Made by a program: the position numbers and the translations under genes. DNA of 64,000 nucleotides, taken from positions 186,001 through 250,000 of the forward strand of contig JUEB01000029.1 of assembly GCA_000802095.1 (NCBI GenBank). Direction: 5' to 3'. The DNA is from Peptococcaceae bacterium BICA1-7 (GTDB lineage: Bacteria; Bacillota; Desulfotomaculia; Desulfotomaculales; Desulfocucumaceae). The notes beneath the pieces were generated by a model. The model was not told where the DNA came from. It searched no databases and saw nothing but the letters and a program-made list of their open reading frames with translations. Shown piece by piece: positions 3,938 through 39,782 of this stretch (positions within the stretch are counted from its first letter, which is position 1; each line of letters starts with the position of its first letter).

Positions 3938-4189
3938 AGCCACAGAGGACACAGAGATCACAGAGATCACAGAGAATTAAGTTGCAGGCACTACTCTGAA
4001 GCAAAAAGGATAATTTGGGGCAAGTATTCTCAAGTTTATTCAATTTCCCGCCGTCTGTGTACCGGGGACATTCCTCCGACACCAAAAATGCCGGAATTAG
4101 GAATTGGGGGAGAGCAAAAGCCATCCCGATCGGGGACATTCCTCCGACCTTCAGAGCCAATCATACCAGGGAGGTGTGTCCCCATTCCC
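3938..4189. repeat. Intergenic dispersed repeats: CACAGAG word repeat and a reverse-oriented GGGGACA-type repeat
   Basis: The 334-bp gap between the receptor gene and ilvE has no gene. Positions 3941-3976 carry tandem words of the type CACAGAGGACACAGAGATCA, also seen at 19133, 21574 and, inverted, at 21718. Positions 4064-4189 carry a reverse-strand copy of the repeat at 9750-9895 and 10889-11036. Its marks are two GGGGACATTCCTCCGAC blocks at 4064 and 4132, GATCGGGGACATTCC, and GGTGTGTCCCCATTCC at the end. The repeat abuts the ilvE stop codon directly. Confidence 0.8.
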
Positions 4190-5529: not shown

Positions 5530-6147
5530 ATGAAAAATGAATTGTTTGAAAAAATTGGTATAATGGGTGGAACCTTTGACCCTATTCACTACGGCCACCT
5601 GGTGGCTGCCGAGGGCGCCCGCTGCCACTTTGGGCTGGACATGGTTTTTTTTGTGCCGGCTGCAAGACCTCCCCACAAGGGGGACAGATACATCAGCCAC
5701 CCGTCACACAGGCTTGATATGACTATTTTGGCTACCGGCAGCAATCCCCGGTTTCAGGTTTCCGACGTTGAGATAAGGCGCAGCGGGCCCTCCTATACAA
5801 TTGACACAGTTTTTCACTTTGCCCGGTCATGGCCCGGCGCGCTTATTTACTTCATTACAGGGGCCGATGCCATACTGGAGATACTTACCTGGCACCGGGT
5901 TGAGGAATTGCTGGACATGTGCAGCTTTATAGCGGCCACCAGGCCGGGCTACCGGCTGGAAAACCTGGCCGGAAGCCTTCAGGGGCTGCCCTCACGCTAT
6001 ATTGAAAAAATATCGGTGATGGAGGTTCCGGCCCTGGCCATATCCTCTACCGACATAAGGGAGAGGGTAAAGAAGGGCATGCCCATAAAGTACCTGCTTC
6101 CCGAAAAGGTGGAGGAGTACCTGTATTCTAAAGAGCTCTACATATAA
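5530..6147 (+). CDS. nadD: Nicotinate-nucleotide adenylyltransferase
   Basis: NadD joins nicotinate mononucleotide and ATP to give deamido-NAD. The 205-residue protein shows the nucleotidyltransferase start GIMGGTFDPIHYGHL with the HxGH signature, then VPAARPPHK, SYTIDTV, FITGADAI and, near the end, the ISSTDIRER motif (SxTxxR). Two earlier in-frame ATGs exist (5482, 5512). I chose 5530 because it has a GAGG about 11 nt upstream and gives the family length. In related genomes nadD usually sits beside yqeK, rsfS and leuS. Here rsfS is 4 kb downstream, with a minus-strand sigma-factor operon between, and no yqeK is seen. Confidence 0.93.
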   Translation: MKNELFEKIGIMGGTFDPIHYGHLVAAEGARCHFGLDMVFFVPAARPPHKGDRYISHPSHRLDMTILATGSNPRFQVSDVEIRRSGPSYTIDTVFHFARSWPGALIYFITGADAILEILTWHRVEELLDMCSFIAATRPGYRLENLAGSLQGLPSRYIEKISVMEVPALAISSTDIRERVKKGMPIKYLLPEKVEEYLYSKELYI

Positions 6148-6149
6148 GG

Positions 6150-6356
6150 CCAGGAGATAGGAGACAGGAGACAGAAGTCAGAAGAATAATGGCGGAAGCC
6201 TTATACTGGAAGTATAAGAAAGCGCCCCGTTTAATTTCAACGGGGCGTTTTAAATATCTCCATACCGCAAAGTCAACCCTATTAATCAGCCAAACAAGTG
6301 CAGGTAATAAGGAATGCCTTGACAGCTCCTGTCTCCTGTCTACTGTCTCCTGACCC
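6150..6356. repeat. Dispersed inverted-arm repeat (GGAGACA type) around the nadD terminator
   Basis: The left arm at 6150-6180 contains GGAGATAGGAGACAGGAGAC. The right arm at 6326-6356 contains CTCCTGTCTCCTGTC and CTGTCTCCTGACC in inverse orientation. The core word AAGGAATGCC is at about 6310. The element encloses the nadD terminator. See also 13562, 20075, 22760, 35100 and 36542. Confidence 0.7.
6223..6251 (+). terminator. Rho-independent terminator after nadD
   Basis: CGCCCCGTT pairs with AACGGGGCG over a 7-nt loop and is followed by TTTTAAA. On the other strand the tail is not a T-run, so it serves the plus strand. Confidence 0.85.
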
Positions 6357-6400
6357 TAATTCTTTTCTTTTAAGCGAAATTCCTCCGGAAAGACTATCCC

Positions 6401-10552: not shown

Positions 10553-10882
10553 ACGTCAGTCTTATAGAGTAACGACTTTGAAGGGGAGCAGTAAGCGGCC
10601 CGGGCTTTTTAAGAGAGCCGCCGGTGGGTGTAAGGCGGTAGGCGAAAGCTGCAGAAACTCGCCCCGGAGTTTACCGGGCGAAGGTCAAGTAACCCGGTAC
10701 GGTTAGCGCCGTTATACGTTTTAAGAGGGTAAGGCACATGGGGCTGTGGCGCAGAGGGAGCGCGCTTCCTTGGCATGGAAGAGGCCGCGGGTTCGATTCC
10801 CGCCAGCTCCACCAATTTTCCTTTACCAATCAGGGTGGTATCGCGGGCAGTAACCCGTCCCTTCAGGGGACGGGTTTTTTCG
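10553..10882 (+). promoter_or_regulatory. T-box leader (tRNA-Leu sensing) of leuS, interrupted by a tRNA gene
   Basis: T-box leaders bind uncharged tRNA and then favour an antiterminator. Visible parts are stem I with the lower helix GGGG/CCCC, the specifier loop (AGTAA on the 5' side, AGAAACTCG on the 3' side), the AGAGA and GGTG elements at about 10610-10630, a stem II/pseudoknot-like region (GGTTAGCGCCGTTA) at about 10700, a stem III base GGTAAGG/CCTTTACC, the T-box AGGGTGGTATCGCGG at 10832-10846, and the terminator AACCCGTCCC/GGGACGGGTT with TTTTTT ending at 10880. CTC at 10658-10660, followed by a purine, is the likely specifier and fits leucine and the downstream leuS. A tRNA-Ala gene occupies the loop of stem III. 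Confidence 0.87.
10740..10814 (+). tRNA. tRNA-Ala (anticodon GGC) with encoded CCA, inside the leuS T-box leader
   Basis: A full cloverleaf is present. The acceptor stem is GGGGCTG (10740-10746) with CAGCTCC (10804-10810). The D stem is GCGC/GCGC with a short 7-nt loop, the anticodon stem CTTCC/GGAAG with loop TTGGCAT (GGC at 10772-10774), and the T stem GCGGG/CCCGC with loop TTCGATT. Discriminator A is at 10811 and CCA at 10812-10814. The G3:U70 pair, the main alanine identity element, is present. The gene has no promoter of its own that I can see; it would be made as part of the leuS leader from the promoter at 10519 and cut out by RNase P and 3' processing. Confidence 0.93.
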
Positions 10883-10888
10883 TATATA

Positions 10889-11036
10889 AGGAATGGGGAC
10901 ACACCGAAAGCGGAAAGGGGACACACCTGCTGAATGGCTTTGGGGGTCGGAGGAATGTCCCCGATCGGGGTGGCTTTTGTCCTCCCCCCAATCCCTAATC
11001 CCTAATCCCCAATCCCCAATCCCCAATTCCCAATTT
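10889..11036 (+). repeat. GGGGACA-type dispersed repeat, copy 3, between the T-box terminator and leuS
   Basis: It has the same block order as 9750-9898: GGAATGGGGACACACC, GGGGACACACC, GGTCGGAGGAATGTCCCC, GATCGGGGTGGCTTTTGTCC, then a run of CAATCCC/CTAATCC words. It separates the T-box terminator from the leuS ribosome-binding site by about 150 bp and would be part of the leuS mRNA 5' end. Confidence 0.8.
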
Positions 11037-13561: not shown

Positions 13562-13708
13562 GCTTATACTGCATTACTCTTCGGTCGGAATACAGGAGTC
13601 AGAATTCAGAATTCAGAAGATCAAAACCTTTAAAAAAAGGAATGCCTGGAATTCTGGCTTCTGGATTCTGTATTCTGAATTCCGACCGTAAAGAATTTCA
13701 GGATAAGG
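13562..13708. repeat. Dispersed inverted-arm repeat (GAATTCAGA type)
   Basis: The left end is GCTTATACTGCATTACTC, then CGGTCGGAATACAGGAGTC and GAATTCAGAATTCAGAAG. The core holds AAGGAATGCC. The right arm is CTTCTGGATTCTGTATTC and GAATTCCGACCG, and the end is TTTCAGGATAAGG. The ends mirror each other imperfectly. No ORF is present. Confidence 0.7.
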
Positions 13709-17928: not shown

Positions 17929-18443
17929 TGAAAAAAAGGGATATTGTCATTGGAAAAATAGTGGGCACCCACGGAAACAGGGGGATGCTTAAGCTATTCC
18001 CCATAACTGATTTTCCGGAAAGGTTTCTGGAGATGAAAACCATTACCCTGGAAAAAGATGGTGACCAAAAGGTATACAATATAACCGAAGCTTCCCCCTA
18101 CCGCCGGTTCATTCTGATCAGGCTGGACGAAATTCCTGACATGACTGCAGCCGAGGGCCTCAAGGGCGCACTGGCAAAGGTGGCCAGGGAAGAGCTGGCA
18201 GACCTTCCGGAGGATAGCTTTTACATATTTGATATAGTGGGGCTGAAGGTTTTTACTGCCGGCGGCGACCATGCCGGTGAAATAGAGGATGTCATTCAGA
18301 CCGGGGCCAACGATGTATATGTGGTCAAAAGGGTAAATGGCCCCCCTGTGCTGGTGCCTGCACTGAAAAATGTAATCAGGGAAGTGAATATAAAAGAAGG
18401 CCGGGTGGTGGTGGACTATCCGGAGCTTGAGAGCTCCGTGTAG
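17925..18443 (+). CDS. rimM: Ribosome maturation factor RimM
   Basis: RimM binds S19 and helps fold the 3' domain of 16S rRNA. The 172-residue protein has the N-terminal IGKIVGTHGNRGMLKLFP barrel and the C-terminal PRC-barrel (FYIFDIVGLKV, GEIEDVIQTGANDVYVV, VLVPALKNVIREV). It starts inside the ylqD stop. Confidence 0.95.
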   Translation: MMKKRDIVIGKIVGTHGNRGMLKLFPITDFPERFLEMKTITLEKDGDQKVYNITEASPYRRFILIRLDEIPDMTAAEGLKGALAKVAREELADLPEDSFYIFDIVGLKVFTAGGDHAGEIEDVIQTGANDVYVVKRVNGPPVLVPALKNVIREVNIKEGRVVVDYPELESSV

Positions 18444-18486
18444 CGCTGTGTCCCATTCCGGCTGGTCGAATTCAGGAGGTGGGGCG

Positions 18487-19080
18487 GTGAAAATATCTGT
18501 CATACTGGGCCATCCACAAAAGGGAAGCTTCAATCACGCCATGGCCGAAAGGGCTGTCAAAACACTGCAGGACAATGGACACCAGGTTTATTTCCACGAC
18601 CTGTACAGTGAAGATTTCAACCCGGTGATTCCTTACGGTGAAATACCCAGGGGAGCTGTCCTTGATACTGTTGTGGAGGAACACTGCAGGGAGATTTCTT
18701 CCGTGGACGGGATAGTGATCGTGCATCCCAACTGGTGGGGTCAGCCGCCGGCCATCTTAAAGGGCTGGGTGGACCGGGTAATCCGTCCCGGGGTGGCCTA
18801 CGAATTTTGTGAGGGTGACTCCGGCGAAGGTGTCCCCAGAGGGCTTTTAAGGGCCGGGACAGCCCTTGTTTTCAATACCTCCAACACCCTTGCCCAAAGG
18901 GAGAGGGAGGTTTTTGGAGACCCTCTGGAGACTATCTGGAAAAACTGCATTCTGGGGCTGTGCGGGGTCAATACCTTTTATCGCAAAATGTACGGTATAG
19001 TGGTTACCAGCACGGCGGATGAGAGAGAAGGCTGGCTGAAAGAGATTGAGGAAACAGTAAAAAGCTATTTTCCCGGCTAG
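18487..19080 (+). CDS. NAD(P)H-dependent flavodoxin-like oxidoreductase (YwrO/KefF type)
   Basis: The 197-residue protein belongs to the flavodoxin_2 quinone reductase group. It shows ISVILGHPQKGSFNHAMAER for FMN phosphate binding, then IVHPNWWGQPPAILKGWVDR and GVAYEFCEG. The family uses NAD(P)H to reduce quinones or related compounds. The start is the GTG at 18487, with AGGAGGTGG upstream; the ORF extends 60 nt further but overlaps rimM. It lies between rimM and trmD, which is unusual for that operon, and is followed by a repeat-bearing gap. Confidence 0.86.
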   Translation: MKISVILGHPQKGSFNHAMAERAVKTLQDNGHQVYFHDLYSEDFNPVIPYGEIPRGAVLDTVVEEHCREISSVDGIVIVHPNWWGQPPAILKGWVDRVIRPGVAYEFCEGDSGEGVPRGLLRAGTALVFNTSNTLAQREREVFGDPLETIWKNCILGLCGVNTFYRKMYGIVVTSTADEREGWLKEIEETVKSYFPG

Positions 19081-19124
19081 CCGCCGTCAGAGGATTAAAA
19101 ACCGTGCAAGCCATCATGCATGTT

Positions 19125-19272
19125 TTTAAAAGCCACAGAGTACACAGAGATCACAGAGATTTATTAGCCCGGCTGATCAGCTTTTTTAGTTATAAGGAAT
19201 GCTTAACCCATTCTGTCTCCTGACTCCTGACTTCTGTATTCAGACCGAATAAACTTTCAGTATAAGCTTGTT
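19125..19272. repeat. Intergenic repeat remnants before trmD
   Basis: CACAGAGTACACAGAGATCA lies at 19134, the core word AAGGAATGCTTAACC at 19195, a right arm with CTGTCTCCTGACTCCTGAC and TCTGTATTCAGACCG at about 19220, and the terminal word TTTCAGTATAAGC at 19255-19267. A matching left arm was not found, so this looks like part of one element. Confidence 0.6.
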
Positions 19273-19285
19273 AGGGGGCTAATCT

Positions 19286-20288
<1,003 letters not shown>

Positions 20289-20399
20289 ATTGCGTGCATG
20301 CTTTCTTTATGATATAATTTCTTTTGTTGATTAAGGGTGGTCCGCTGCCTTCCTGAGATAATAAGGTATGAACGCCTGGGTGGAAGGAGGTACATAACT

Positions 20400-20747
20400 A
20401 TGAGCCTAATTCAATCGTTGGAGCAAGAGCAGATTAAAAAGGACATTCCCGATTTTAAGCCGGGTGACACCGTTAAGGTATCCGTCAAAGTTATTGAGGG
20501 CACCCGTGAAAGGATTCAGGTCTTCGAGGGAGTGGTAATAAGGCGCAGGGGCGGCGGCCTTGGTGAAACATTCACCGTCCGCAGGGTTTCCTACGGCGTC
20601 GGGGTAGAGAGAACCTTCCCCATCAACACACCCAAAATTGAAAAAATAGAGGTAACCAGGCGGGGCCTGGTGCGCCGCGCCAGACTATACTACCTGCGTA
20701 AACTGCGCGGTAAAGCCGCCCGGATTAAAGAGAAAGTCAGAAGGTAA
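20400..20747 (+). CDS. rplS: 50S ribosomal protein L19
   Basis: The protein of 115 residues matches bL19: [48 protein letters not shown] and a basic C-terminus. The ATG at 20400 has GGAAGGAGGT upstream; the ORF continues 63 nt further without a good site. It ends in a terminator. Confidence 0.96.
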
Positions 20748-20756
20748 CAGCCTTAA

Positions 20757-20783
20757 GAGGGGACTGCAAAACAGTCTCCTTTT
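20757..20783 (+). terminator. Terminator after rplS
   Basis: GGGGACTG pairs with CAGTCTCC over the loop CAAAA, followed by TTTTGG. It lies in front of lepB, so it may be an attenuating terminator. Confidence 0.7.
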
Positions 20784-20818
20784 GGACTTTTAGACATCCT
20801 TTACGGAGGAGAAATATC

Positions 20819-21385
20819 ATGCCGGACAATGCTGGCGTCCCCAGTGAAGTGGAAGATCGCCCGAAAAAATCCACCCTCAGGGAAATAGTTGAGTCCCTGG
20901 TAATAGCAGTGGTGCTTGCGCTGCTTATCAGGACCTTCATACTGCAGCCCTTTTATATTCCCTCGGGCTCCATGGAGCCCAACCTGATGATACAGGACCA
21001 TATTATAGTCAATAAGATAGGCTACAGGTTCTGGGAGCCCCAGCGGGGGGACATAGTGGTGTTCAAGTTTCCCCGGGACCCCTCCAAGGATTTTGTGAAA
21101 AGGCTGATCGGCCAGCCAGGGGATAAGGTGGAAATAAGAAAAAGCAAACTATATATAAACGGAAATCTGGTTTCTGAAAATTATCTACCCGCCGGACTGG
21201 AGTTTGGTAGTTTCGGGCCCGCTGTTATTCCTGAAAACAGCTACTTTATGATGGGGGACAACCGGAATAACAGTGACGACAGCCGCAGTTGGGGGGTACT
21301 GCCCAGGGAAAATATAATTGGCAAGGCCGTACTGACATACTGGCCTCTAAACCGGATACATCTACTGACCGGAAGCCAGGAGTAA
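20819..21385 (+). CDS. lepB: Signal peptidase I
   Basis: Type I signal peptidase removes signal peptides on the outer face of the membrane. The 188-residue protein has one N-terminal membrane helix (about VESLVIAVVLALLIRTFI). The catalytic serine is in IPSGSMEPNL, the lysine in DFVKRLIGQPGDKVE, and MGDNRNNSDDSRSWG is the conserved box E. It sits after rplS, as in many Firmicutes, and a terminator follows at 21434. Confidence 0.95.
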   Translation: MPDNAGVPSEVEDRPKKSTLREIVESLVIAVVLALLIRTFILQPFYIPSGSMEPNLMIQDHIIVNKIGYRFWEPQRGDIVVFKFPRDPSKDFVKRLIGQPGDKVEIRKSKLYINGNLVSENYLPAGLEFGSFGPAVIPENSYFMMGDNRNNSDDSRSWGVLPRENIIGKAVLTYWPLNRIHLLTGSQE

Positions 21386-21433
21386 AAGCCATCTCCGGGG
21401 TGTCCGGTTCCTTTAAAAAATCATTTATGGAAC

Positions 21434-21464
21434 AGGGGGCCGGACAGGCCCCTTTATTTTTTTC
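21434..21464 (+). terminator. Terminator after lepB
   Basis: GGGGCC pairs with GGCCCC over GGACA and is followed by TTTATTTTTTTC. Confidence 0.85.
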
Positions 21465-21517
21465 TAAACATATGCGAATAATAATCCACAAGAATCAATA
21501 CCCACAAGGGCAAGCTC

Positions 21518-21842
21518 ATTATATTCTGACTCCTGAATTCTACCCTGAAAGTGATGAATGTCTTTTTTATGAACCACAGAGGACACAGAGATCACAGAGA
21601 ATTTGCTCTCAGGTATTACTCTCGGGTCTGAAACCTATGTAGTAAATAATAGGAGTTTTTTTTGCCCAACCCATTTTAATAAAAACCTTTAAAACATTCA
21701 AGCGGGGCTTAAAAACCTCTGTGTCCTCTGTGCTCTCTGTGGTTTAAAAAGGACCCAATTTTCATCTTCCTTGGTGGCCGTATTAAGCGGCCCGGGGGTC
21801 TGAATTCTGTATTCCGACCGTAAGGCAGTGCCCGTAAGCATT
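21518..21842. repeat. Long inverted-arm repeat with CACAGAG and GAATTC arms
   Basis: The 493-bp gap between lepB and rbgA holds no gene. The outer left arm ATTCTGACTCCTGAATTC (about 21523) and inner left arm CACAGAGGACACAGAGATCA (about 21576) are mirrored by the inner right arm CTCTGTGTCCTCTGTGCTC (about 21718) and the outer right arm TCTGAATTCTGTATTCCGAC (about 21801). The end GCAGTGCCCGTAAGC resembles the ATAAGC terminus of other copies. Confidence 0.7.
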
Positions 21843-21878
21843 AGTAATTGTACTCCGTGGTGACGGGGAGGAATAGAC

Positions 21879-22727
21879 TTGACCAAAGATATTCAGTGGT
21901 TTCCCGGTCATATGTCCAAGGCCAGGAGACTTTTGCAGGAAAACCTTAAGCTGGTTGACGCTGTAATAGAAGTTGTTGACGCCAGGATACCATTCAGCAG
22001 CCGCAATCCCCTGCTGCAAAAAACAGTGGGGCTAAAGCCTTTGCTGGTGGTGTTGAACAAGTCTGACCTGGCAGACCCCGAAATAACCGCCCTCTGGGAG
22101 AGGCATCTGGCCTCAAAGGGGCTGGAAGCCATAGCAGTGGACTCGGTGCGGGGCCTGGGAGCGGACAGGATAGCCCCCAGGATTAAGCATATGACAGGGA
22201 AGAAGACTATTTCTCTGGGGTCCTCCGGGCGTCTTCCCAGACCGCCCAGGTGTATGATAGTGGGCATCCCCAACGTGGGTAAATCATTCCTTATAAACCG
22301 GCTGGTGGGAAAAAAAGCCGCCAGGACCGGCAACAGGCCTGGTGTTACCAGAGGTCAGCAGTGGGTCAGGGTGGGGGAGATTGACCTTCTGGACACTCCC
22401 GGCATACTCTGGCCAAAGTTTGACGACCCCGAGGTGGGCTACCGTCTGGCGGTTACAGGTGCTGTTAAAGAACAGGTTCTGGACGTGGAGGAGGTAGCCG
22501 GAAAGCTGGCCGGATGGCTGGCGGCCAATCATCCGCAAAGCTTAACAGCCCGTTATAAAATTGTTCTCCCGGACTCTCCTGAGCCTGAAATGCTGCTGGA
22601 GCTGATCGGGGAAAGCAGGGGGCTTATTCAGCAGGGCAGGAAGGTGGACATATACAAGGCGGCCATTCTTCTCCTCAAAGAATTCCGTGAGGCCACCCTG
22701 GGGAGGTACACTCTTGAGAAGCCATAG
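21879..22727 (+). CDS. rbgA: Ribosome biogenesis GTPase RbgA (YlqF)
   Basis: RbgA is needed late in 50S assembly. The 282-residue protein is circularly permuted: G4 is NKSD (about residue 61), G1 is GIPNVGKS (about residue 129) and G3 is DTPG (about residue 175). The N-terminus has [11 protein letters not shown], typical of YlqF. The start is TTG with GGGGAGGA upstream. A C-terminal helical domain follows. It is co-directional with rnhB, as usual, but separated from it by a nested repeat. Confidence 0.95.
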
Positions 22728-22759
22728 GCTAATAAGATTGAACCTATGGGTCAGGAGGA

Positions 22760-22936
22760 GCTTACCGGCATTACCCCCTGTCAGGAGACTGCTTATGGGT
22801 ACTACTTCCTGTCAGGAGACAGGAGTTTTGCAAGCCTGCCTCTTTTTTATACCATTCTGACTCCTGTCTCCCGACCATGAAGATCATTCTTATAAGCAGT
22901 CTCCTGTCTCCGACAGAAAAGAGTTTCAGTATAAGC
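22760..22936. repeat. Nested dispersed repeat: element inside element
   Basis: The outer element begins GCTTACCGGCATTACCC, continues CTGTCAGGAGACT, and resumes as AGTCTCCTGTCTCCGACAG to end in TTTCAGTATAAGC. Between the two halves lies an inner element of 107 bp (22791-22897), which begins GCTTATGGGTACTACTTCC, has arms CTGTCAGGAGACAGGAG and CTCCTGTCTCCCGACC, and ends CATTCTTATAAGC. This fills most of the 327-bp gap between rbgA and rnhB. Confidence 0.72.
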
Positions 22937-23054
22937 AACATGACCGTTCGGGGAAAAAATATTTACATTGGGGGCAGGGATTTGTCCTTTCATCTCGAAA
23001 AATCTATTAATCTACAGTATTGTTCATAACAAAAATTTATTACGGAGGCACCGT

Positions 23055-23855
23055 TTGAACTTATCGGCCATGACCATTGCTGAAATAAGGAAGCAAGTGG
23101 AATGCCTTCTGGAAGGTTCCGGGAATCCCGGGGAGGACTTCTTGCAGGCCCTGGCGTCAGACCCCAGGGCCGGAGTCAGTAATATATACGGCATGTTGAT
23201 GAGGCGCCGCCTGCGGATTCACGCCGAGGAGCAGAGGCTGGAGGCTCTTTTCCACTATGAGAAAAGCCTGGCGGCTGAAGGGATACACCTTGTGGCGGGC
23301 GTTGATGAGGCCGGGAGGGGACCCCTGGCGGGGCCGGTTGTGGCATCCGCTGTAATTCTTCCGCCCCAAGCGCGTATACATGAATTAAACGATTCAAAGC
23401 AGCTTTCACCGGCTAAAAGGAAAGCCCTGGCTGTCAGGATAAAAAAAATATCTGAGGCCTGGGCTATAGGTGTGTCCACTGTTAATGAAATATTGGAGCT
23501 AAATATCTACCACGCCTCACTGCTGGCCATGAGAAGGGCTCTGGAGGGTCTGAGGCTGGCGCCCGGCCACGTGCTGGTAGACGGGTTTGCCATACCGGGA
23601 CTGTCCTTGCCCCAGACCCACATAGTGGGCGGTGACGCTAAAAGCGGGTCTATAGCGGCGGCCTCAATACTGGCCAAGGAAAGCAGGGATGAGCTTATGG
23701 GGCTGTGCCACTTCCTGTATCCCCAGTACGGCTTTGACAGGCACAAGGGCTACGGCACGGCGGACCATATCAGGGCGCTGCGACAGTACGGGCCCTGCCC
23801 CCTTCACCGGGAGGATTTCGGGCCGGTTAAAAGAGAAATGAGAAGTGAGAAGTAA
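23055..23855 (+). CDS. rnhB: Ribonuclease HII
   Basis: RNase HII cuts RNA in RNA-DNA hybrids, including single ribonucleotides. The protein of 266 residues has the catalytic GVDEAGRGPLAGPVVASAV, LNDSKQLSPAKRK and GGDAKSGSIAAASILAKESR. An N-terminal extension of about 70 residues (MTIAEIRKQVECLLEG) is the substrate-binding domain present in many Firmicute RNases HII. I chose the TTG at 23055, which has GGAGG 6 nt upstream; the next ATG at 23070 is too far from it. Confidence 0.93.
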   Translation: MNLSAMTIAEIRKQVECLLEGSGNPGEDFLQALASDPRAGVSNIYGMLMRRRLRIHAEEQRLEALFHYEKSLAAEGIHLVAGVDEAGRGPLAGPVVASAVILPPQARIHELNDSKQLSPAKRKALAVRIKKISEAWAIGVSTVNEILELNIYHASLLAMRRALEGLRLAPGHVLVDGFAIPGLSLPQTHIVGGDAKSGSIAAASILAKESRDELMGLCHFLYPQYGFDRHKGYGTADHIRALRQYGPCPLHREDFGPVKREMRSEK

Positions 23856-24071
23856 TTCCTCCCGCCTCTCAACTTGGGTCTGGTGTTATAAATTACTGCT
23901 CAACTAACCGGTGAGCATCCTATATAATTACTGTGGGCCTTTTTGTTTCATGGACCTTGAAAGTGGCTTTTGGAGAACACGGAGGGGCTTGCTCCACTAA
24001 TAACCCTCCGCGCTTCCTTAAAAGGGCATATATTCTTGGTAATCAATTTTATAAAGAAAGGAGGGAGGATT

Positions 24072-24428
24072 TTGCTTTCTGACTGGGGTGCTTTGTTTAT
24101 TTTTCTCGCCGTTGCCTTTGTTTTTGGAGTAGGGGGTATTGCCACAAGTTTTTTGATTCACCCGCGTAAAACCACTGAACAGAAGATTACTACCTACGAG
24201 TGCGGCGTCGATACTATCGGCCCCACCTGGGTGCAATTTAAGACCAGCTATTTCATGTATGCATTACTATTTGTAATATTCGACGTGGAAACTATCTACC
24301 TTTATCCCTGGGCTGTGCAGTTTAAAAACCTGGGGCTGTTTGCCTTTATCGAAATGATTGTATTCCTGTTTATACTGATTGTAGGACTGTGGTACGCCTG
24401 GAAGGAAGGAGCACTAGAATGGAAGTAA
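24072..24428 (+). CDS. nuoA: NADH-quinone oxidoreductase subunit A
   Basis: This is the first gene of an 11-gene complex I operon. The 118-residue membrane protein has three helices and the conserved loop [12 protein letters not shown], then [23 protein letters not shown] chose TTG at 24072, with AGGAGG ending 7 nt upstream; the upstream ORF would add 34 unlikely residues. It overlaps nuoB by 10 nt. Confidence 0.92.
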
Positions 24429-24958
24429 CAAAAGATACCCACCCGGTGGAGAAATTGACCAACGACCCGGTGGTTATTGATGAGGTCAAGCGCCTTATTC
24501 ACATTGCTCCGCTGGAAAAAGTTTTAAATGCAGCCAGGGCGCATTCACTTTGGCCCTTCGGCTTTGGCCTGGCCTGCTGCGCCATCGAGGGCCTCATGGC
24601 GGCCAATATGCCCCGCTTTGACCTGTCCCGGTTTGGCTATGAGGTTATGAGGGGGTCACCCCGGCAGGCCGATGTTATGCTGGTTTGCGGGACGGTTACC
24701 CATAAGGCTGCTCCTTTTGTGGTAAGGCTTTATGAGCAGATGGCCGAGCCCAAGTGGGTTATCGCCATGGGCAGCTGCGCAATCTCAGGGGGACCCTTTG
24801 TGGACTCCTACCATGTTGTGCCCGGGGTGGATAAGCTGATCCCGGTGGACGCCTATGTACCCGGCTGCCCGCCCAGGCCGGAGGCTGTCGTTGACGCCTG
24901 GCTAATGATCAAGAAAAAAATATTGGACCCGAAGGTGGTGAGTCAGGTCCGTGGCTGA
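24419..24958 (+). CDS. nuoB: NADH-quinone oxidoreductase subunit B
   Basis: NuoB carries the N2 4Fe-4S cluster next to the quinone site. The 179-residue protein shows [16 protein letters not shown]-like [11 protein letters not shown] and [15 protein letters not shown], giving the four cysteine ligands. The ATG lies inside the end of nuoA, so the two are coupled. Confidence 0.95.
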
Positions 24959-25412
24959 TTACAATATTCCCGCAGAATTAATGGAAGCCCTGAAAGGAAA
25001 GTTTTCAGGCATTGAAATAATGGAGAATGGGGACGTAATTGTTCCGGCGGCTGATTTAATGGCATTTATGACCGAGATAAAGGAAAATCCCGATACCGCC
25101 ATGGATTTTCTGACCAACCTGACGGCCTCGGATTACAAAGACCGCCTGGAGACCGTCTATAATCTGGTTTCCATTACCCACGGGTATACCCTTACGGTAA
25201 AAGTTAAATTAGAGGATAAGGAAAATCCTCAAGTCCCATCCCTGTGTCCCCTCTGGGACGGGGCCAGCTGGCAGGAGCGTGAAACATACGACCTGATGGG
25301 AATTGTCTTTACAGGCTATCCCGGCCACCCCACCCGTATTTTGCTGGATGATAATTTCAAGGGGCACCCGCTGCGCAAGGATTACCAGTGGGAAGGCGGC
25401 AGGGAAGCGTAA
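24951..25412 (+). CDS. nuoC: NADH-quinone oxidoreductase subunit C
   Basis: The 153-residue peripheral-arm subunit has the 30-kDa subunit signature [20 protein letters not shown] and GHPLRKDYQ. It starts at a GTG overlapping nuoB by 8 nt. In this operon NuoC and NuoD are separate proteins, unlike the enterobacterial fusion. Confidence 0.94.
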
Positions 25413-25446
25413 AACGAGACTTACGGGATAAGAGGTGTTGTGGTAA

Positions 25447-26541
25447 ATGAAAACTGAAACTTATACCCTGAACCTCGGCCCTCAGCACCCCAGTACGCAC
25501 GGTGTGTTCAGAATCATACTGGAACTGGATGGGGAAACAGTGGTGAAGGCCACCCCGGTGCCTGGCTACCTGCACAGGGGCATTGAAAAGCTGGCCGAGG
25601 CCAGGACCTACACCCAGGTAATTCCCTATACCGACAGGATGGACTATATGGCCGCCATGCTGATGAACTGGGGCTACGTTGCGGCAGTTGAGAAGCTGAT
25701 GGATATAGAGGTTCCCGAAAGGGCGGAATACGTAAGGGTAATTGTGGGAGAGCTCTCCAGGATTGCCAGCCATATGATTGCCACCGGGGCTTACGGCGGT
25801 GATATCGGGGCGCTGACAGCGTTCACCTATACCTTCCGGGACAGGGAATATGTTCTTGACTTGCTGGAGATGGTATCGGGCTCACGCATGACCTTTAGCT
25901 ACTTCCGCATTGGCGGGGTGGCAGCGGACCTGCCTGAGGAGTTTTTCCCGGCCGTCAGAAAGTTTCTTGGTGAGCTGCCCGCTATGTGCGATGAGTATGA
26001 CGGACTGATTACCGGAAATGAGATCTTCCAGGCCCGGACCAAGCAGGTGGGCATTATCACTCCGGAGATGGGCATTAATTATAGCCTGAGCGGTCCCACC
26101 TTAAGGGGCAGCGGGGTGAATTACGACCTGCGCAAGGTACGGCCGTACGGCATATATGACCGTTTTGACTTTGACGTTCCCCTGGGCCAGAACGGAGACT
26201 GCTTTGACCGGTTCCGTATCAGGATTGATGAGATGCGCCAGTGTAAGAGGATTATCGAGCAGGCCCTGGACCAGATACCCGAGGGGCCCATTATGGCCAA
26301 GGTGCCCAAGGTCATCAAACCTCCGGTGGGTGACGCCTACGCAGAGGTGGAAAGCTCCAAGGGCGTCTACGGTTGCTATGTGGTCAGTGACGGCAGCCCC
26401 AAGCCCTACCGGGTGCATTTCCGCCGCCCCTCCTATATCAACCTGGGATACCTGGGCAAGCTGTGCGAGGGCTGGAAGATAGCCGACGTTATAGCCATCC
26501 TGGGGAGCATTGATATTGTGCTGGGCGAAGTGGACTGTTAG
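25447..26541 (+). CDS. nuoD: NADH-quinone oxidoreductase subunit D
   Basis: The 49-kDa subunit homologue, 364 residues, forms the quinone pocket with NuoB. It opens with [15 protein letters not shown], then [22 protein letters not shown], and ends in [11 protein letters not shown]. It is related to the large subunit of NiFe hydrogenases but lacks the nickel-binding cysteines, as expected for complex I. GAGGTGTTGTGGTAA precedes the ATG. Confidence 0.96.
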
Positions 26542-26568
26542 CGAAAACAGTAGTAGGGGAGAAGAGTT

Positions 26569-27627
26569 ATGGGTGAAAATATTTTTGTAGGTATTGCCAC
26601 CTGGCTCAGAGGGCTTTTGAGCGGCGCCGGAGTGCCGGATATGTGGAATGACACCATCCTGCTTGTGGTCAAGCTGGTTGCCATTCTCCTGTTCATACTG
26701 GTCAACGCCCTCTGGCTGGTTTACATGGAGCGCCGGGTGTGCGCGTTCATGCAGTCCCGCCTGGGCCCCATTCACGTGGGACCAAAGGGACTATTTCAGA
26801 CGGCTGCAGATATAGGAAAGCTCCTGGGCAAGGAAATTATCCTTCCCAAGGGCGCCGACCTGTTGGTATTTCTCCTCATGCCGGTGGTTATATTCATACC
26901 GCCCCTTCTTATCTTCGGGGTGCTTCCCTTTGGTAAGAATATGGTGGCCATTGACATGAACATCGGAGTGTTCTATCTCCTGGCCATAGCCTCGCTGTCC
27001 ACCATCATTTTCTGGGCGGCTGGCTGGGCCTCCAACAACAAATACTCCCTGGTGGGCGGCATGCGCTCGGTGGCCCAGATGGTCAGCTACGAGCTGCCGC
27101 TGATATTGGCCCTTCTGGGAGTAATAATGATTACCGGAACCCTGAACCTGAACACTATTGTGGATTCCCAGAAGAGCATCTGGTTCGTGTTCACTCAGCC
27201 TATTGCCTTCCTGGTTTATCTAATAGCCGGAATGGCCGAGACCAACCGGACCCCCTTCTGCCTTGTGGAAGGTGAGTCCGAGATTATCGCCGGTCCTTAT
27301 ACCGAGTATTCCGGAATGGGCTTCGCCATGTTCTTCCTGGCTGAGTATGCCAACGTTATGATAATTTCAGCCATGTGCACCGTAATGTTTCTGGGCGGCT
27401 GGCTGGCCCCCTTCGGGCTGGACTTCATACCGTCCTGGCTGTGGTTTTTCCTTAAAATGTACCTGATGATATTTGTCTTCATGTGGGTCCGCTGGACCTA
27501 CCCGCGTATCCGGGTTGACCAGTTGATGGGCTTTGGCTGGAAAGTTCTGGTGCCCCTGGCCCTGGCCAACATCTTCGTGACCGGAGTGGGCATGTATATA
27601 TTCCGGGCGATAGGGTGGTGGAGCTAA
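26569..27627 (+). CDS. nuoH: NADH-quinone oxidoreductase subunit H
   Basis: The 352-residue membrane subunit joins the two arms of complex I. It has about eight helices, with the signatures YMERRVCAFMQSRLGP and IHVGPKGLFQTAADIGKLL and the acidic loop GMAETNRTPFCLVEGESEII close to the quinone cavity. It ends directly at the nuoI start. Confidence 0.96.
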   Translation: MGENIFVGIATWLRGLLSGAGVPDMWNDTILLVVKLVAILLFILVNALWLVYMERRVCAFMQSRLGPIHVGPKGLFQTAADIGKLLGKEIILPKGADLLVFLLMPVVIFIPPLLIFGVLPFGKNMVAIDMNIGVFYLLAIASLSTIIFWAAGWASNNKYSLVGGMRSVAQMVSYELPLILALLGVIMITGTLNLNTIVDSQKSIWFVFTQPIAFLVYLIAGMAETNRTPFCLVEGESEIIAGPYTEYSGMGFAMFFLAEYANVMIISAMCTVMFLGGWLAPFGLDFIPSWLWFFLKMYLMIFVFMWVRWTYPRIRVDQLMGFGWKVLVPLALANIFVTGVGMYIFRAIGWWS

Positions 27628-28098
27628 ATGTTTGGACAAGGATTAATAAAGGGACTGCAGATTACCTGGGGAAGGATGTTCGACAAGAAGCAGACAGTCA
27701 AGTACCCATTTGAAAAAATAGAAATGTTTCCCAGGTACCATGGACGCTTCGAGCTGGATGTAGACAAGTGTATAGCCTGCGGTCTTTGCGCCAACGCCTG
27801 CCCCAACAAGGTTATACAGCTTGAAAAGGAAAAAGTTGATAAAAAGCAATTTCTTACCAAGTATATAATGCGCATAGAGTACTGCCTTTTCTGCGGGCTG
27901 TGCGTGGAGGCGTGCAACAAGGACGCTTTGAAGTTCAGCAATATAATTGATATGAACCAGTATCGGCGCAGTTGGGTTCGCCTTACCCTGGTGGACCGGC
28001 CCGCCCCGGAACCGACCGAAACCCCTGAAGAGGAGACCCCGGCCAAGGAAGCCAAGAGTGAGGCAGCCGCCGGGCAGGCTCCCGGTAAGGAGGGTTGA
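27628..28098 (+). CDS. nuoI: NADH-quinone oxidoreductase subunit I
   Basis: The 156-residue ferredoxin-like subunit has two 4Fe-4S motifs: CIACGLCANACPNK and CLFCGLCVEACNKD. The last motif has CN where most proteins have CP. It relays electrons to N2 in NuoB. A low-complexity tail (ETPEEETPAKEAKSEAAA) follows. In an EFG-less complex this subunit is the probable docking site for the external electron donor, likely ferredoxin; that is inference. Confidence 0.95.
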   Translation: MFGQGLIKGLQITWGRMFDKKQTVKYPFEKIEMFPRYHGRFELDVDKCIACGLCANACPNKVIQLEKEKVDKKQFLTKYIMRIEYCLFCGLCVEACNKDALKFSNIIDMNQYRRSWVRLTLVDRPAPEPTETPEEETPAKEAKSEAAAGQAPGKEG

Positions 28099-28105
28099 TA
28101 GACTG

Positions 28106-28642
28106 ATGGAACTTTTAGACAGCATTAGCTGGGTAGCTGTAGCATTTCATACCCTGGCCGCCGTGGCGGTGATTTCCGCCCTGCTGGTGGTCTTTGTCAG
28201 AAACATTGTGCACGCCGTGCTTTGGCTGGCAGTGTTCTTTATCTCACTGGCCGGGGTGTTCCTGACCCTGAATGCCGAATTTATAGCCGCCATACAGGTT
28301 ATCGTGTACGCCGGAGCCATCTGTATAATGGTGGTTTTCGGTATAATGCTTATCCGCCGCTGGAATATGGGCGAAACCAACCTTTTCAATAGCCAGACGG
28401 TGGCAGCCGCCGGTGTGGTGGCTCTGGTCACCATGCTCAGCGCCTTCCTGTCCTTTAAGTCCGGCGTTGTAGAGCCTGCTGGAGATGTTCCCGTTAACCA
28501 GGTGGAAAGTATTGCCACGGCTCTGCTGACCAAGTATGTTATACCGTTTGAGGTGGCAGCTCTGCTTCTGCTGGTAGCACTGGTGGGCGCCATTTTCCTT
28601 GCCAAGGAGGTGAAGGCCGATGACGCTGACTCTCACAGTTAG
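28106..28642 (+). CDS. nuoJ: NADH-quinone oxidoreductase subunit J
   Basis: The membrane subunit of 178 residues has five helices. It shows AVLWLAVFFISLAGVFLTL and QVIVYAGAICIMVVFGIMLI, the latter being the helix with a pi-bulge in structures. I use the ATG at 28106, with AAGGAGGG upstream, not the ORF start inside nuoI. It overlaps nuoK by 23 nt. Confidence 0.94.
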   Translation: MELLDSISWVAVAFHTLAAVAVISALLVVFVRNIVHAVLWLAVFFISLAGVFLTLNAEFIAAIQVIVYAGAICIMVVFGIMLIRRWNMGETNLFNSQTVAAAGVVALVTMLSAFLSFKSGVVEPAGDVPVNQVESIATALLTKYVIPFEVAALLLLVALVGAIFLAKEVKADDADSHS

Positions 28643-28943
28643 CCTGTATCATTACCTGATACTGTCGGCGGTCATTTTTGGCATAGGGTTGTTCGGAGTC
28701 CTGTCCAAGAAGAATGCCATAGCGGTGCTGATCTGTATTGAGCTGATGCTCAACGCTATTAACATTAACCTGGTGGCATTCAACAAATACATGACCCCCG
28801 GCGACTTTGTCGGACAGCTTTTTGCCATATTCGTGATAACCGTAGCCGCGGCCGAGGTAGGGGTTGGTTTGGCCATTATCATTGCCATCTACCGCAACAA
28901 GCTGTCGGTAAACCTGGATGATTTCGACTGGCTCAAGTGGTAG
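28620..28943 (+). CDS. nuoK: NADH-quinone oxidoreductase subunit K
   Basis: The 107-residue, three-helix subunit has AVLICIELMLNAININLVAF with the conserved membrane glutamate, and a second one in TVAAAEVGVGLAIIIAIYR. GGAGGTGAAGGCCG precedes the ATG inside nuoJ. Confidence 0.95.
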   Translation: MTLTLTVSLYHYLILSAVIFGIGLFGVLSKKNAIAVLICIELMLNAININLVAFNKYMTPGDFVGQLFAIFVITVAAAEVGVGLAIIIAIYRNKLSVNLDDFDWLKW

Positions 28944-29057
28944 AAAAGAGGCCGCCCAAAAAGCCCATCTGCTGTGTTGCGACTGCAGCTTGCATCTGGA
29001 GCTTTTTGAACAGCCTTGAAGGTTCAACTTTCGATAGAAGGTAGGTGCTGAACTGAG

Positions 29058-30980: not shown

Positions 30981-32497
30981 TGGACGGATTTCCCTTTCTG
31001 ACGGCAATACTACTGGCGCCTGTGGCTGCGGCCCTGATCATGGTCTTTATCCCCAGGGACGAGGGCAAGCTTATCAAGTGCATCGCGGCTATGGGAACCT
31101 TCGTGTCGCTGGCGCTCTCTCTGTACGTGTATTTTAGTTACGACATGAGTATAGGCGGCCTGCAGTTTGTAGAGCAGATTCCCTGGATCAGGGACCTGGG
31201 AGTAAGCTGGTTCATGGCGGTTGACGGAATAAGCCTGCCCATGCTGCTGCTCACCAACCTGATCGGCTTTGCGGCGGTTTTTGCCTCCTGGAATGTGAAC
31301 AACCGCCCCAGAGAGTTTTTCATTCTGTTCATGCTGCTGATAACCGGGGTTATGGGCACCTTTATAGCCCACGACCTGTTTATCTTCCTGTTGTTCTATG
31401 AAGTAGTGGTAATACCTATCTACATCATGGTGATTATCTGGGGAAGCTCCAAGAGGGTCACCAAGGAGTATGCCGGCATGAAGCTGACCATCTACCTTCT
31501 GATAGGGTCCGCTTTCCTGCTGGTGGGTGTCATTGCCATGTTTATGAAGTCGGTGGGCATACTGGGTCATCCTGATATGAGCTTTACAGCCCTGGCCGAG
31601 GCCGGGAAGCAGCTAAGCGCCTTCGACCAGAAGTGGCTGTTCGGATTGATGCTCTTTGGGTTTGGCTCACTGATATCCATGTGGCCGTTCCACTCCTGGT
31701 CACCCGACGGCTACGCCGGCGCTCCTACCGCTGTATCCATGATTCACGCCGGTGTGCTTAAGAAAATAGGTGGTTACGGGCTGGTTAAAATTGCCCTGGT
31801 CTTCTTGCCCATAGGGGCCAAGTTCTGGGCCCCGGTTATGGCCGTGCTGGGTATCGCCGGTGTCACTTACGCTGCCTTCGGCGCCCTGGCACAGAAAGAC
31901 TTAAAGTATATTGTGGGCTATTCATCGGTCTCCCACATGGGCTACGTGATGCTGGCCATAGGATCCTTTAACCTTATAGGAATAAACGGCGCGGTGGCCA
32001 ACATGTTCGGCCACGGCGTAATGGCGGCCCTGTTCTTCTCGACCATAGGCTTCATCTACGAGAAAACACACACCCGCTGGATTCCGGACATGGGCGGGCT
32101 GGCCAGACAGACCCCGAGACTGGCAGTGGCCTTTATGCTGGCCGCCATGGCCTCACTGGGACTGCCCGGGCTGGTCACCTTCATCCCCGAGTTCACCATT
32201 TTCGTGGCTGCGTTCCAGGTGTACGGGGGCCTGGCGGTAATCGGTATCGCCGGCATTATCCTGACTGCGCTATATGTGCTCAGGGCCGGGGCCAACACAC
32301 TGTTTGGGCCGCCCAGGGACGAGTATAACCACCTTGAGGATATACGCGGCCCCGAGATGGTTCCGCTGGTGGTGCTGGGCACTGTCCTGGTAGTTGGCGG
32401 ACTTCTGCCCTCCCTGCTGTTCGACATGATCAACAGTGGCGCCAAAGACATCATGACTCACGTAGAGGGCGTACTGAAGATTGGGGGGGTGTTATAA
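30980..32497 (+). CDS. nuoM: NADH-quinone oxidoreductase subunit M
   Basis: The 505-residue antiporter-like subunit shows FLLFYEVVVIPIYIMVIIWG, FHSWSPDGYAGAPTAVSMIH and QKDLKYIVGYSSVSHMGYVM. It takes part in proton pumping with NuoL and NuoN. The start overlaps the nuoL stop by one base (TAATG). Confidence 0.96.
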   Translation: MDGFPFLTAILLAPVAAALIMVFIPRDEGKLIKCIAAMGTFVSLALSLYVYFSYDMSIGGLQFVEQIPWIRDLGVSWFMAVDGISLPMLLLTNLIGFAAVFASWNVNNRPREFFILFMLLITGVMGTFIAHDLFIFLLFYEVVVIPIYIMVIIWGSSKRVTKEYAGMKLTIYLLIGSAFLLVGVIAMFMKSVGILGHPDMSFTALAEAGKQLSAFDQKWLFGLMLFGFGSLISMWPFHSWSPDGYAGAPTAVSMIHAGVLKKIGGYGLVKIALVFLPIGAKFWAPVMAVLGIAGVTYAAFGALAQKDLKYIVGYSSVSHMGYVMLAIGSFNLIGINGAVANMFGHGVMAALFFSTIGFIYEKTHTRWIPDMGGLARQTPRLAVAFMLAAMASLGLPGLVTFIPEFTIFVAAFQVYGGLAVIGIAGIILTALYVLRAGANTLFGPPRDEYNHLEDIRGPEMVPLVVLGTVLVVGGLLPSLLFDMINSGAKDIMTHVEGVLKIGGVL

Positions 32498-33931: not shown

Positions 33932-33950
33932 AGCGTTCAGGTTTACTGCA

Positions 33951-33984
33951 AAATACCCCCGTTCTAACGGGGGTATTTTTTTTG
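33951..33984 (+). terminator. Terminator of the nuo operon
   Basis: AATACCCCCGTT pairs perfectly with AACGGGGGTATT over a two-base apex and is followed by seven T residues. Confidence 0.95.
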
Positions 33985-35082: not shown

Positions 35083-35099
35083 CTCACAGGATCGGACTT

Positions 35100-35325
35100 T
35101 TTGTCAGGAGACAGGAGACTGCTTACAGGTATTACTTATTGTCGGTAGACGGTAGACGGGAGTTAGCCGGAGCATTCCTTATTTGCCTTCATTTTGCTTT
35201 TTTATGGGTAATCAAATGGACAGGTAGGTCAGGCTTTCAACGGCTTTAGAGTCCAGCTTATAAAACTCCCGTCTCCCGTCTCCTGACCTTAGGACCATTC
35301 TTGTGAGCAGTCTCCTGACCCTTTA
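35100..35325. repeat. Nested dispersed repeat between moxR-like and VWA genes
   Basis: The outer arms TGTCAGGAGACAGGAGACT (35102) and AGTCTCCTGACCC (35309) flank an inner element of 188 bp (35121-35308). The inner element begins GCTTACAGGTATTACTT, has arms GTCGGTAGACGGTAGACGGG and CTCCCGTCTCCCGTCTCCTG, and ends CATTCTTGTGAGC. The same arrangement of an inner element between GGAGACT and AGTCTCC is seen at 22760-22936. Confidence 0.72.
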
Positions 35326-35342: not shown

Positions 35343-36542
35343 ATGTTCACCGGTTTTTTCTATACACTCAAGGAAGAAAAGGTCCCGGTAACTCCCACGG
35401 AGTGGATGACTCTTATGGAGGCCCTGGATGGTGGGCTGTCCGGGGGGAGCCTGTCGGGCTTTTATTATCTTGCCAGGGCGGTGCTGGTAAAAAGCGAGGC
35501 CCACTATGACCGTTTTGACCTTGCCTTCAGGAGGTATTTTGATGGTATAGAAACCTCCGATAAGCTGGCCGATCAGGTGGCCAGGTGGCTGGAAAAGTCT
35601 CTGCCTCCACTGAAAATAGATGCTGATCAGAGAAAGTTCAGCGAATGGAGTCTGGAGGATCTTAAAAAGGCGCTGGAGGAAAGGCTTAAGACCCAGGACG
35701 GGGAGCACCACGGAGGCTCCCAGTGGATCGGGACCGGGGGCACTTCCCCCTTCGGGCACTCGGGCTATCACCCGGCGGGCGTAAGGATTGGCGGGCAGTC
35801 CAACAACCGTTCGGCGGTAAAGGTGGCTGCCGAGAGGAAATACAGGGACTTCCGGAATGATGACACCCTGAATACCCGGCAGTTTGAGGGGGCCTTAAGA
35901 AAGCTCAGGGAGCTGGGCAGGAATGAAGAGGTACCCAGAGATCAGCTTAATATAGATAAGACTATCGACGCCACCTGCCGCAAGGCAGGCATGCTGGAGC
36001 TGGTATGGGACAGGCCGCGAAAAAACACAGTAAAGGTAGTCCTTATGATGGACTCGGGGGGCTCCATGAACCCCTATGCCAGGCTTTGCAGCCAGCTTTT
36101 CACCGCGGCCTCAAGGGTGAACCACTTTAAGGATATAAGATTTTACTATTTTCACAACTGCGTGTATGAAAAATTATTCAATGACCCCTTCTGCATGGTC
36201 AGGAACTCGGTAAAAACAGAAGATGTAATGAGGCAGCTGGACCCAAACTATCGCCTGATCATGGTGGGGGACGCCAGTATGGCTCCCAGTGAGCTGAGCA
36301 TGGTGGGCGGGGCCCTGGACTGGGGAGTGGAGAATGATGAGACCGGCGAAGTCTGGCTGAAAAGGCTGTCAGAGCGATTCTCCCACTGCGTGTGGCTGAA
36401 CCCGGTGGCTGAAAACCTCTGGCCTCCCCCGGGGGAGAGGTTCTACGACACCGTAGGTATTATCCGCGGCATTTTCCCCATGTTTCCCCTGACGGTGGAG
36501 GGGCTGGAAAGGGCTATTGCCAGGCTGAAGGTTAATAAATAA
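35343..36542 (+). CDS. VWA-domain protein of the CoxE type
   Basis: The 399-residue protein has an N-terminal helical region beginning FFYTLKEEKVPVTPTEW, a Gly/Ser-rich linker (HHGGSQWIGTGGTSPFGHSG), and a von Willebrand A domain from about residue 225. Its metal site begins MMDSGGSMNPY and continues later with MVGDASMAPSEL. It matches the CoxE/YeaD-like partners of MoxR ATPases, which usually aid assembly of a metal cofactor or complex. The client protein is not evident from the neighbours. Confidence 0.86.
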   Translation: MFTGFFYTLKEEKVPVTPTEWMTLMEALDGGLSGGSLSGFYYLARAVLVKSEAHYDRFDLAFRRYFDGIETSDKLADQVARWLEKSLPPLKIDADQRKFSEWSLEDLKKALEERLKTQDGEHHGGSQWIGTGGTSPFGHSGYHPAGVRIGGQSNNRSAVKVAAERKYRDFRNDDTLNTRQFEGALRKLRELGRNEEVPRDQLNIDKTIDATCRKAGMLELVWDRPRKNTVKVVLMMDSGGSMNPYARLCSQLFTAASRVNHFKDIRFYYFHNCVYEKLFNDPFCMVRNSVKTEDVMRQLDPNYRLIMVGDASMAPSELSMVGGALDWGVENDETGEVWLKRLSERFSHCVWLNPVAENLWPPPGERFYDTVGIIRGIFPMFPLTVEGLERAIARLKVNK

Positions 36543-36695
36543 CTTATAGGTATTCCACTCCGGTCGGGAGACAGGAGACAGAAGGAGAAAGCATTCCTTG
36601 ATGGCCTGATTGATTGATAAAGCAGGTACAGAGGCTTGCTTTACTAATCCGGACACATAATCACACGAAACTACTGTCTCCCGGCAGAAAAGAAA
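36542..36695. repeat. Dispersed inverted-arm repeat (GGAGACA type)
   Basis: The left end is ACTTATAGGTATTCC, then CGGTCGGGAGACAGGAGACAG; the core has GCATTCCTTGATGG; the right arm is CTACTGTCTCCCGGCAG. It fills the gap before the C_GCAxxG_C_C gene and reaches almost to its ribosome-binding site. Confidence 0.65.
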
Positions 36696-36714
36696 ATTAG
36701 GAGGAGGTAAAATT

Positions 36715-39611: not shown

Positions 39612-39634
39612 ACAAGTTCCCTCCTCTTATAAAG

Positions 39635-39782
39635 CCTTCAGCAGTCAGCAATCAGCTGACAGAGTGGCTAAGTGGTCAAAAAATAATATGGCAGTCAGCT
39701 ATTAGCCACCGGATTGGTTTACAATATGCACCGGTTTTAAAAGTTTTGCTGATAGCTGACTGCTGACCGCCCGTAGGGCGGT
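39635..39782. repeat. Dispersed inverted-arm repeat (GTCAGCTA type)
   Basis: The left arm has CAGCAGTCAGCAATCAGCTG and CAGTCAGCTATTAGCC; the right arm has GCTGATAGCTGACTGCTGAC in inverse orientation. It has the same plan as the GGAGACA and GAATTCAGA copies but different arm words. It lies between the LysE gene and the 3' end of the glutamate dehydrogenase gene. Confidence 0.65.

Follow-up and report, generated by a model that had tools for sequence, protein, structure and literature searches.

The hairpins that recur within the window, by which we mean the whole analysed stretch of 64,000 nucleotides, are best read as internally deleted, gene-less members or relics of a mobile element carrying a PF05635 (S23/IVP) gene, with the heptad repeated in their arms serving as an address read by the protein; we give this reading a probability of about 0.72. 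Such elements are very widespread and best known as the intervening sequence (IVS) of bacterial 23S rRNA; their only gene, S23/IVP, encodes a small four-helix protein. In its complete form the element would run from an outer foot through a heptad array, one S23/IVP gene and an inverted heptad array to a second outer foot; seated in 23S rRNA it would be the known IVS, and in the present genome it would occupy intergenic sites.

Seven two-armed copies of one family lie in the window (Table 1), all of them between protein genes, and there is no rRNA within the window. They follow a common plan, in which an outer foot of ~25 bp (GCTTATACTGAAATYCTTTGCGGTCG or a variant) and an array of degenerate G[AG]ANNCA heptads are followed by a loop, devoid of any gene, and then by the same parts inverted. 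The copy at 13562, which separates leuS (leucyl-tRNA synthetase) from an N-formylglutamate amidohydrolase-like gene, has four left heptads (GAATACA GGAGTCA GAATTCA GAATTCA), and its arms are 77% complementary over 13563-13707; this plan recurs, with heptads of the GGAGACA type, in the copies at 6145, 20060, 22760, 22791, 35121 and 36542. In both nested cases the junction is identical, with GGAGACT abutting GCTTAY on the left and AGC abutting AGTCTCC on the right. The window copies fold much better than shuffled sequences (z -7.4 and -6.8), and no Rfam family was found for these hairpins. The inverted repeats that the preliminary description reported at 13562, 22760, 22791, 35121 and 36542 are thus real, and two of the copies that it had called partial, at 6150 and 20075, are each in fact two-armed. 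The one at 19125 does consist of a right half only, common to a close relative, and the one at 21518 resolves into two family arms (21518-21830) that enclose an independent CACAGAG element. The words CACAGAG (with a period of 9 bp) and AGCTATC/AGCAGTC (39635), which had been taken for alternative arms, are those of other families, so that the words lumped together at first belong to at least three families.

Table 1. Coordinates of the hairpin elements and their parts within the window
Coordinates	Strand	Feature	Details
6145..6375	+	Two-armed element	GGAGACA words in both arms; terminator-like hairpin in loop
13562..13707	+	Two-armed gene-less element, GAATNCA subtype	Foot 13562-13586; left heptads 13587-13618
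13562..13707	+	Inner parts of the same element	AAGGAATGC in loop, 13637-13645; right heptads and foot 13652-13707
19185..19266	+	Right half of element	AAGGAATGC, right heptads, right foot; upstream of trmD; also in G002
20060..20285	+	Two-armed element	GGAGACA words; between trmD and rplS
21510..21835	+	Disrupted element	Two right-type arms (21524-21545, 21797-21833) flanking CACAGAG element
21575..21741	+	Hairpin of second family	CACAGAG/GGACACAGAG arms; absent from G002 at this site
22760..22936	+	Outer two-armed element, GGAGACA subtype	Nested copy inside
22791..22897	+	Inner nested complete element	Between outer-arm GGAGACT and AGTCTCC
35103..35319	+	Outer arms enclosing nested element	Arms 35103-35120 and 35309-35319
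35121..35308	+	Inner nested element	GTAGACG / GGAGACG heptads and GCATTCCTT (minus-strand core word)
36542..36700	+	Two-armed element	GGAGACA words
39630..39770	+	Two-armed element, other word family	AGCAGTC / AGCTATC

The sharing of a core word, already remarked in the preliminary description, is borne out: AAGGAATGC occurs six times in the window against 1.0 expected, a count reached in 0 of 100 shuffles. Collecting copies genome-wide by their ends gave a clear excess, with 54 matches to the foot motif CTTATACTGNNATNCTTNNCGGTCGG (up to three mismatches) against 0 in a reversed control, and triplets of GRANNCA numbered 439 against 0. Taken together, these three counts exclude chance. Among the copies of this genome, just six complete ones passed a strict end model, and they gave no convincing excess of target duplications.

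Across the copies of this genome the heptad consensus is G-R-A-N-N-C-A, and the left and right arms of a single copy contain different words in a different order. At the variable positions 2, 4 and 5, arms of the same copy matched at a frequency of 0.49 and arms of different copies at 0.55 (p 0.96, 15 copies); the same test on 23 copies gave 0.53 versus 0.51 (p 0.25, and p 0.99 within the GAATNCA subtype). The complementary fraction over positions 1-7 was 1.00, 0.67, 0.98, 0.44, 0.40, 0.98 and 0.96. The broad subtype, GGAGACA or GAATNCA, tends to be common to both arms (Spearman 0.50, p 0.014, n 23), and one element (L233) combines GAATTCA-type words on the left with GGAGACA words on the right. 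The argument that pairing is kept while the sequence changes therefore fails: compensatory change was tested twice and rejected, in 15 as in 23 copies, and leaves unsupported the suggested selection for a palindrome by that route. Instead, each arm keeps a degenerate heptad consensus. The constraint is on this consensus in inverted orientation and looks more like that on repeated binding sites than that on a stem whose pairing is maintained; a strong stem arises all the same.

PF05635 (23S_rRNA_IVP, four-helix bundle) gave three matches in this genome, corresponding to two decayed genes on contig C18, both of which lie inside the same heptad class with similar or related feet. No intact PF05635 gene is left here, and mobility is demonstrated for gene-bearing relatives, not for the present genome. 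Among 60 genomes searched (this one and its order-level relatives), 30 contain PF05635, and in the relatives the genes mostly lie within inverted heptad arms whose word differs in most genomes (GAATCCA, AGCTATT, AGTAGTC, TTCGATG, GGAATTC, AGGATGA, AAGGGTG, AGTTGAC). Three relatives (G055, G037, G013) have 23S rRNA copies with heptad arms, and a fourth (G048) contains ~17 near-identical dispersed copies whose heptads are AGGCTGT and whose ends (GTAACTATTCAGGC and CCTGAGTAGTAAC) are constant. Some PF05635 loci are without arms, being either old copies or loci with misjudged boundaries. The profile also detects Avd proteins; five of five Avd relatives lie beside a reverse transcriptase and have no arms, so that these loci are a natural control for the arm association. 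Solved structures exist for relatives of the protein (2GSC, 2RLD). The initial view, that the family is mobile, MITE-like and fixed at its ends, accordingly holds in its many copies, its nesting and the insertions of gene-bearing relatives, and needs correction as to the partner: a search covering the listed end pairs and Y1_Tnp found no transposase with matching ends, and the partner is the four-helix-bundle S23/IVP gene.

Insertion can be followed in plasmid relatives. In cyanobacterial conjugative plasmids of Trichormus variabilis and Scytonema, a four-helix-bundle gene stands between two conjugation-region genes, and the clean empty site is seen in plasmids from Nostoc carneum, Nostoc linckia, Microchaete and Aulosira that are ~97% identical to them; comparison of the two states reveals an exact 5-bp target duplication, GTAAT. 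The elements are complete at 423 and 409 bp, have AAA...TTT ends and contain the S23 gene alone, and their left arms differ by two heptads, that is, by exactly 14 bp in two hosts. Arm change by slippage, one of the possibilities raised at the outset, is supported because heptad number changes here in whole units at one insertion site. Further filled and empty pairs come from two gaps in a single operon on a Nostoc plasmid, the second gap having a different protein with GGGAAAA-type words, and from the gap between cas10 and cmr3 of a Cmr CRISPR operon (Picosynechococcus PCC 7003 and 7002). The duplication is unambiguous at one plasmid site; site B shares just 3 bp, and a small deletion seems to be present at site C. 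Gene-bearing relatives of the family are thus mobile, as dispersed copies, empty sites and one 5-bp duplication attest, and it is in such a relative that the duplication looked for at the ends of the window copies was found, none being resolved for the window copies themselves.

Four-helix-bundle genes were also observed on cyanobacterial plasmids in the gaps cas10/cmr3, cas6/cas4 and nrdB/nrdA (L256, L264, L267). These positions may explain the apparent CRISPR linkage of the 23S rRNA IVP family, which a figure legend of PMC10910872 names. Elements of this kind are able to sit within operons, at loci for conjugation, Cmr CRISPR, Cas6/Cas4 and ribonucleotide reductase, and at the best-resolved sites the neighbouring frames are intact.

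At the window sites themselves, turnover can be seen by comparison with a close relative (G002), whose identity is 86-91% across most of 18000-36500. In G002 the gap orthologous to 35068-35315 holds no element, that of 22725-22941 a different one with GACGTC-type words, and that of 21376-21867 half an element, free of the CACAGAG insert; the orthologue of the 36542 copy has similar outer ends and GAATCCA words instead. In the trmD-rplS gap the words of G002 are GAATTCA, against GGAGACA in the window, with similar right feet; in the same gap, G001 as well as G002 has a GAATNCA-word element, and G005 and G007 have GGAGACA words. Empty sites in relatives had been proposed as a check; in this relative the sites hold no element, half of one or one with different words, and no base-precise empty site was obtained for a window copy. 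Element turnover is fast and proceeds via replacement, nesting and slippage, replacement being either re-insertion at the same gap or conversion. The gap upstream of trmD was dropped as a family-wide empty-site comparison because a flavodoxin-like gene precedes trmD in the genome under study and the junction differs in other genera.

The association of protein and word extends across phyla. In a scan of named genomes that covered 80 PF05635 loci from ~20 phyla, an inverted-repeat score of at least 15 was reached at 72% of 75 gene loci and at 0.7% of 284 control positions from the same loci, and arms exceeded the 99th percentile of a cross-locus null at 41 of 79 loci. Most arms have a period of 7; in Bacteroidales and some other groups it is 8-10. 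What the word tracks is the protein and not the host (Spearman 0.51 over 1524 cross-phylum pairs, 0 of 2000 permutations). Specifically, the G[AG]ANNCA class is common to proteins averaging 65% identity from Lentisphaerota, Cyanobacteria, Planctomycetota, Acidobacteriota and others, and GRANNCA arrays number 5-510 in hosts of a GAATNCA-class protein against 0-11 in other hosts (p 1e-6). Part of the correlation between word and protein may stem from a linked unit being inherited together; we prefer constraint because fourfold sites within the G[AG]ANNCA-class set are saturated (0.28 identity), this being the sole argument for constraint.

We consider it likely that the heptad is recognised by the four-helix-bundle protein. 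The address would be read by the matching protein or its complex, as RNA, single-stranded DNA or duplex DNA, and because the heptad would be a protein address, its consensus positions would be kept while the others drift and the arms grow and shrink by slippage. Gene-less copies would be mobilised in trans and could outlive the loss of the gene. As to cutting and joining, the guess that we favour is that the protein, in a ribonucleoprotein or a single-strand hairpin complex, brings in an enzyme from the host or from elsewhere, in analogy to its relative Avd, which works with a reverse transcriptase; once transcribed, the stem would presumably be cut by RNase III, as happens in 23S rRNA.

It is tempting to take that analogy literally and to let the protein hand the transcribed hairpin in trans to a reverse transcriptase of group II intron or diversity-generating retroelement type, as Avd does in the latter. 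Such retro-mobility, which we hold to be possible and on balance doubtful, would suit the detection by PF05635 of Avd proteins next to reverse transcriptases, the strength of the hairpin as RNA and the transcription of the 23S copies. Against it, there is no RVT_1 match in two PF05635-bearing genomes (G020, G056) or in the element-rich G002, with the proviso that genomes may be incomplete and elements old, and G048, where spread was recent, has a single RVT_1 fragment at a contig edge. Nor was RVT_1 matched at this genome's own PF05635 loci on C18. As a universal partner, a reverse transcriptase was rejected on its absence from the three element-bearing genomes, which is not decisive.

That the hairpins are ordinary MITEs, derived from DDE-type insertion sequences and moved by a transposase that recognises the ~25-bp feet, is improbable. 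Terminal inverted repeats, high copy number, intergenic sites and the 5-bp duplication in a related element would all fit; however, PF05635 is the sole gene found within matching ends, and the plasmid elements are complete with the S23 gene alone. No pair on the strong-end list encloses a transposase-sized segment, save one pair 3.4 kb apart on C21, and there the left end is already part of a complete 210-bp element. We give even less credence to the view that the hairpins are REP/REPIN-like and that a Y1 (RAYT) transposase moves them. Hairpin elements are its classic substrate, and Y1_Tnp is found in this genome (five matches) and in most relatives checked, but this explanation is weakened by the arms of the Y1_Tnp genes examined in this genome (G000) and in G002, G020, G031 and G042, which are of other kinds (TTAACTTA, the type seen in this genome, GGGACGTTC etc.) and never paired G[AG]ANNCA arms, and by G056, which has PF05635 matches and no Y1_Tnp match (86% complete). 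Non-mobile RNA hairpins domesticated by the host, as terminators or RNase III sites, would account for strong folding (z about -7) and for sites between genes; we nevertheless see very little chance of this, given arms free of compensatory changes, presence, absence and word that vary among close relatives, nested copies, the lack of an Rfam family and the empty sites of gene-bearing relatives. Finally, simple heptanucleotide repeats, expanded by slippage and inverted by chance, find a parallel in the whole-unit heptad variation at one plasmid site and in Coxiella strains (PMC4990558) and are refuted as a complete account by the fixed outer feet, the exact empty sites and the inverted arms that flank one gene family in ~20 phyla and occur at 0.7% of controls.

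Other word families share the window. Arrays of CACAGAG with a 9-bp period lie at 3941-3976, 19134-19160 and 21575-21741, and short-word repeats (CACAGAG, CACGGAT, ACAGGATTA) adjoin GxxExxY (PF13366) genes in this and related genomes. They occur at all four of the PF13366 loci inspected in the order, a count made without controls, on both sides at L215, L216 and L218 and upstream alone at L034 of this genome. The arrays and the gene-flanking repeats together suggest a second element family, and the CACAGAG hairpin probably descends from a GxxExxY (PF13366) element that has lost its gene. A word similar to the arms at 39630-39770, AGCTATT, flanks the PF05635 gene of G007. Six Y1_Tnp (RAYT-like) genes (L219, L220, L224, L226, L228, L230) have inverted short-word arms of their own (TTAACTTATTAACTTA, GGGACGTTC), unlike the heptads studied here. 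Directly upstream of leuS, a one-sided heptad array of another word class (AATCCCT/AATCCCC) occupies 10988-11033. The same gene is preceded by a full-length T-box leader (10569-10865; Rfam, 133 bits), inside which, just before the T-box sequence, lies a complete tRNA-Ala (GGC) gene at 10740-10814; for a T-box leader to contain a tRNA gene would be unusual. One open reading frame, 4333 codons long, spans 49644-62645.

Whether the window family exemplifies something general is, in our estimation, an even bet: S23/IVP elements would then be a pan-bacterial class without a transposase, in which a protein of ~120 residues reads a lineage-specific word (7 nt, sometimes 8-10) in inverted arms, many of the abundant heptanucleotide repeats of bacterial genomes would be their gene-less descendants, and GxxExxY elements would form a parallel class with ~9-nt words. 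Such a class would unite the 23S rRNA IVS and its S23 protein, the scattered heptanucleotide repeats of bacteria and the small hairpin repeats with no known mover. If the protein does read the word, the protein-word pairs from many phyla would amount to a ready-made recognition code, and a single-gene element that has no recognisable transposase and leaves a 5-bp duplication would need a new or borrowed mechanism. Parts of this picture have been published, namely the IVS in helix 45 of Coxiella burnetii, whose GACAGAT heptamers change in copy number from strain to strain (PMC4990558), and repeats of heptanucleotides in other bacteria (PMC4679880). A search of open-licence literature yielded neither the general rule nor the connection to intergenic hairpins, and turned up no paper joining non-rRNA S23/IVP genes with heptad arms; priority is uncertain, as subscription journals and preprints lay outside this search.

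Among known systems, the Avd proteins of diversity-generating retroelements belong to the same superfamily by profile, and differ in adjoining a reverse transcriptase and in having no heptad arms. The TAACTGA repeats of Beggiatoaceae, for which mobility or a mobile repeat-binding protein has been discussed as possible, are likewise 7-nt words in intergenic arrays; they are mostly direct, and neither an S23 gene nor inverted arms are described for them (PMC4679880). REPINs and REPs with their RAYTs resemble the window family as short, high-copy, gene-less intergenic hairpins, whereas the window family has heptad arrays and long feet, and arms of other kinds flank this genome's RAYT genes. With the MITEs of insertion sequences it shares terminal inverted repeats, internal deletion, nesting and, in a relative, target duplication, although the gene-bearing relative encodes no recognisable transposase. 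A further parallel is the 23S IVS with an S23 open reading frame, which has complementary stem-forming ends, the S23 gene in the loop, heptamers and a sporadic distribution; in the paper that describes it, the heptads are neither a family rule nor tied to the protein (PMC4990558). The window copies differ from it in being intergenic, gene-less and of high copy number and in their additional ~25-bp feet, and because they are located outside rRNA genes, we class them not as IVSs but as the gene-less kin of S23/IVP elements.
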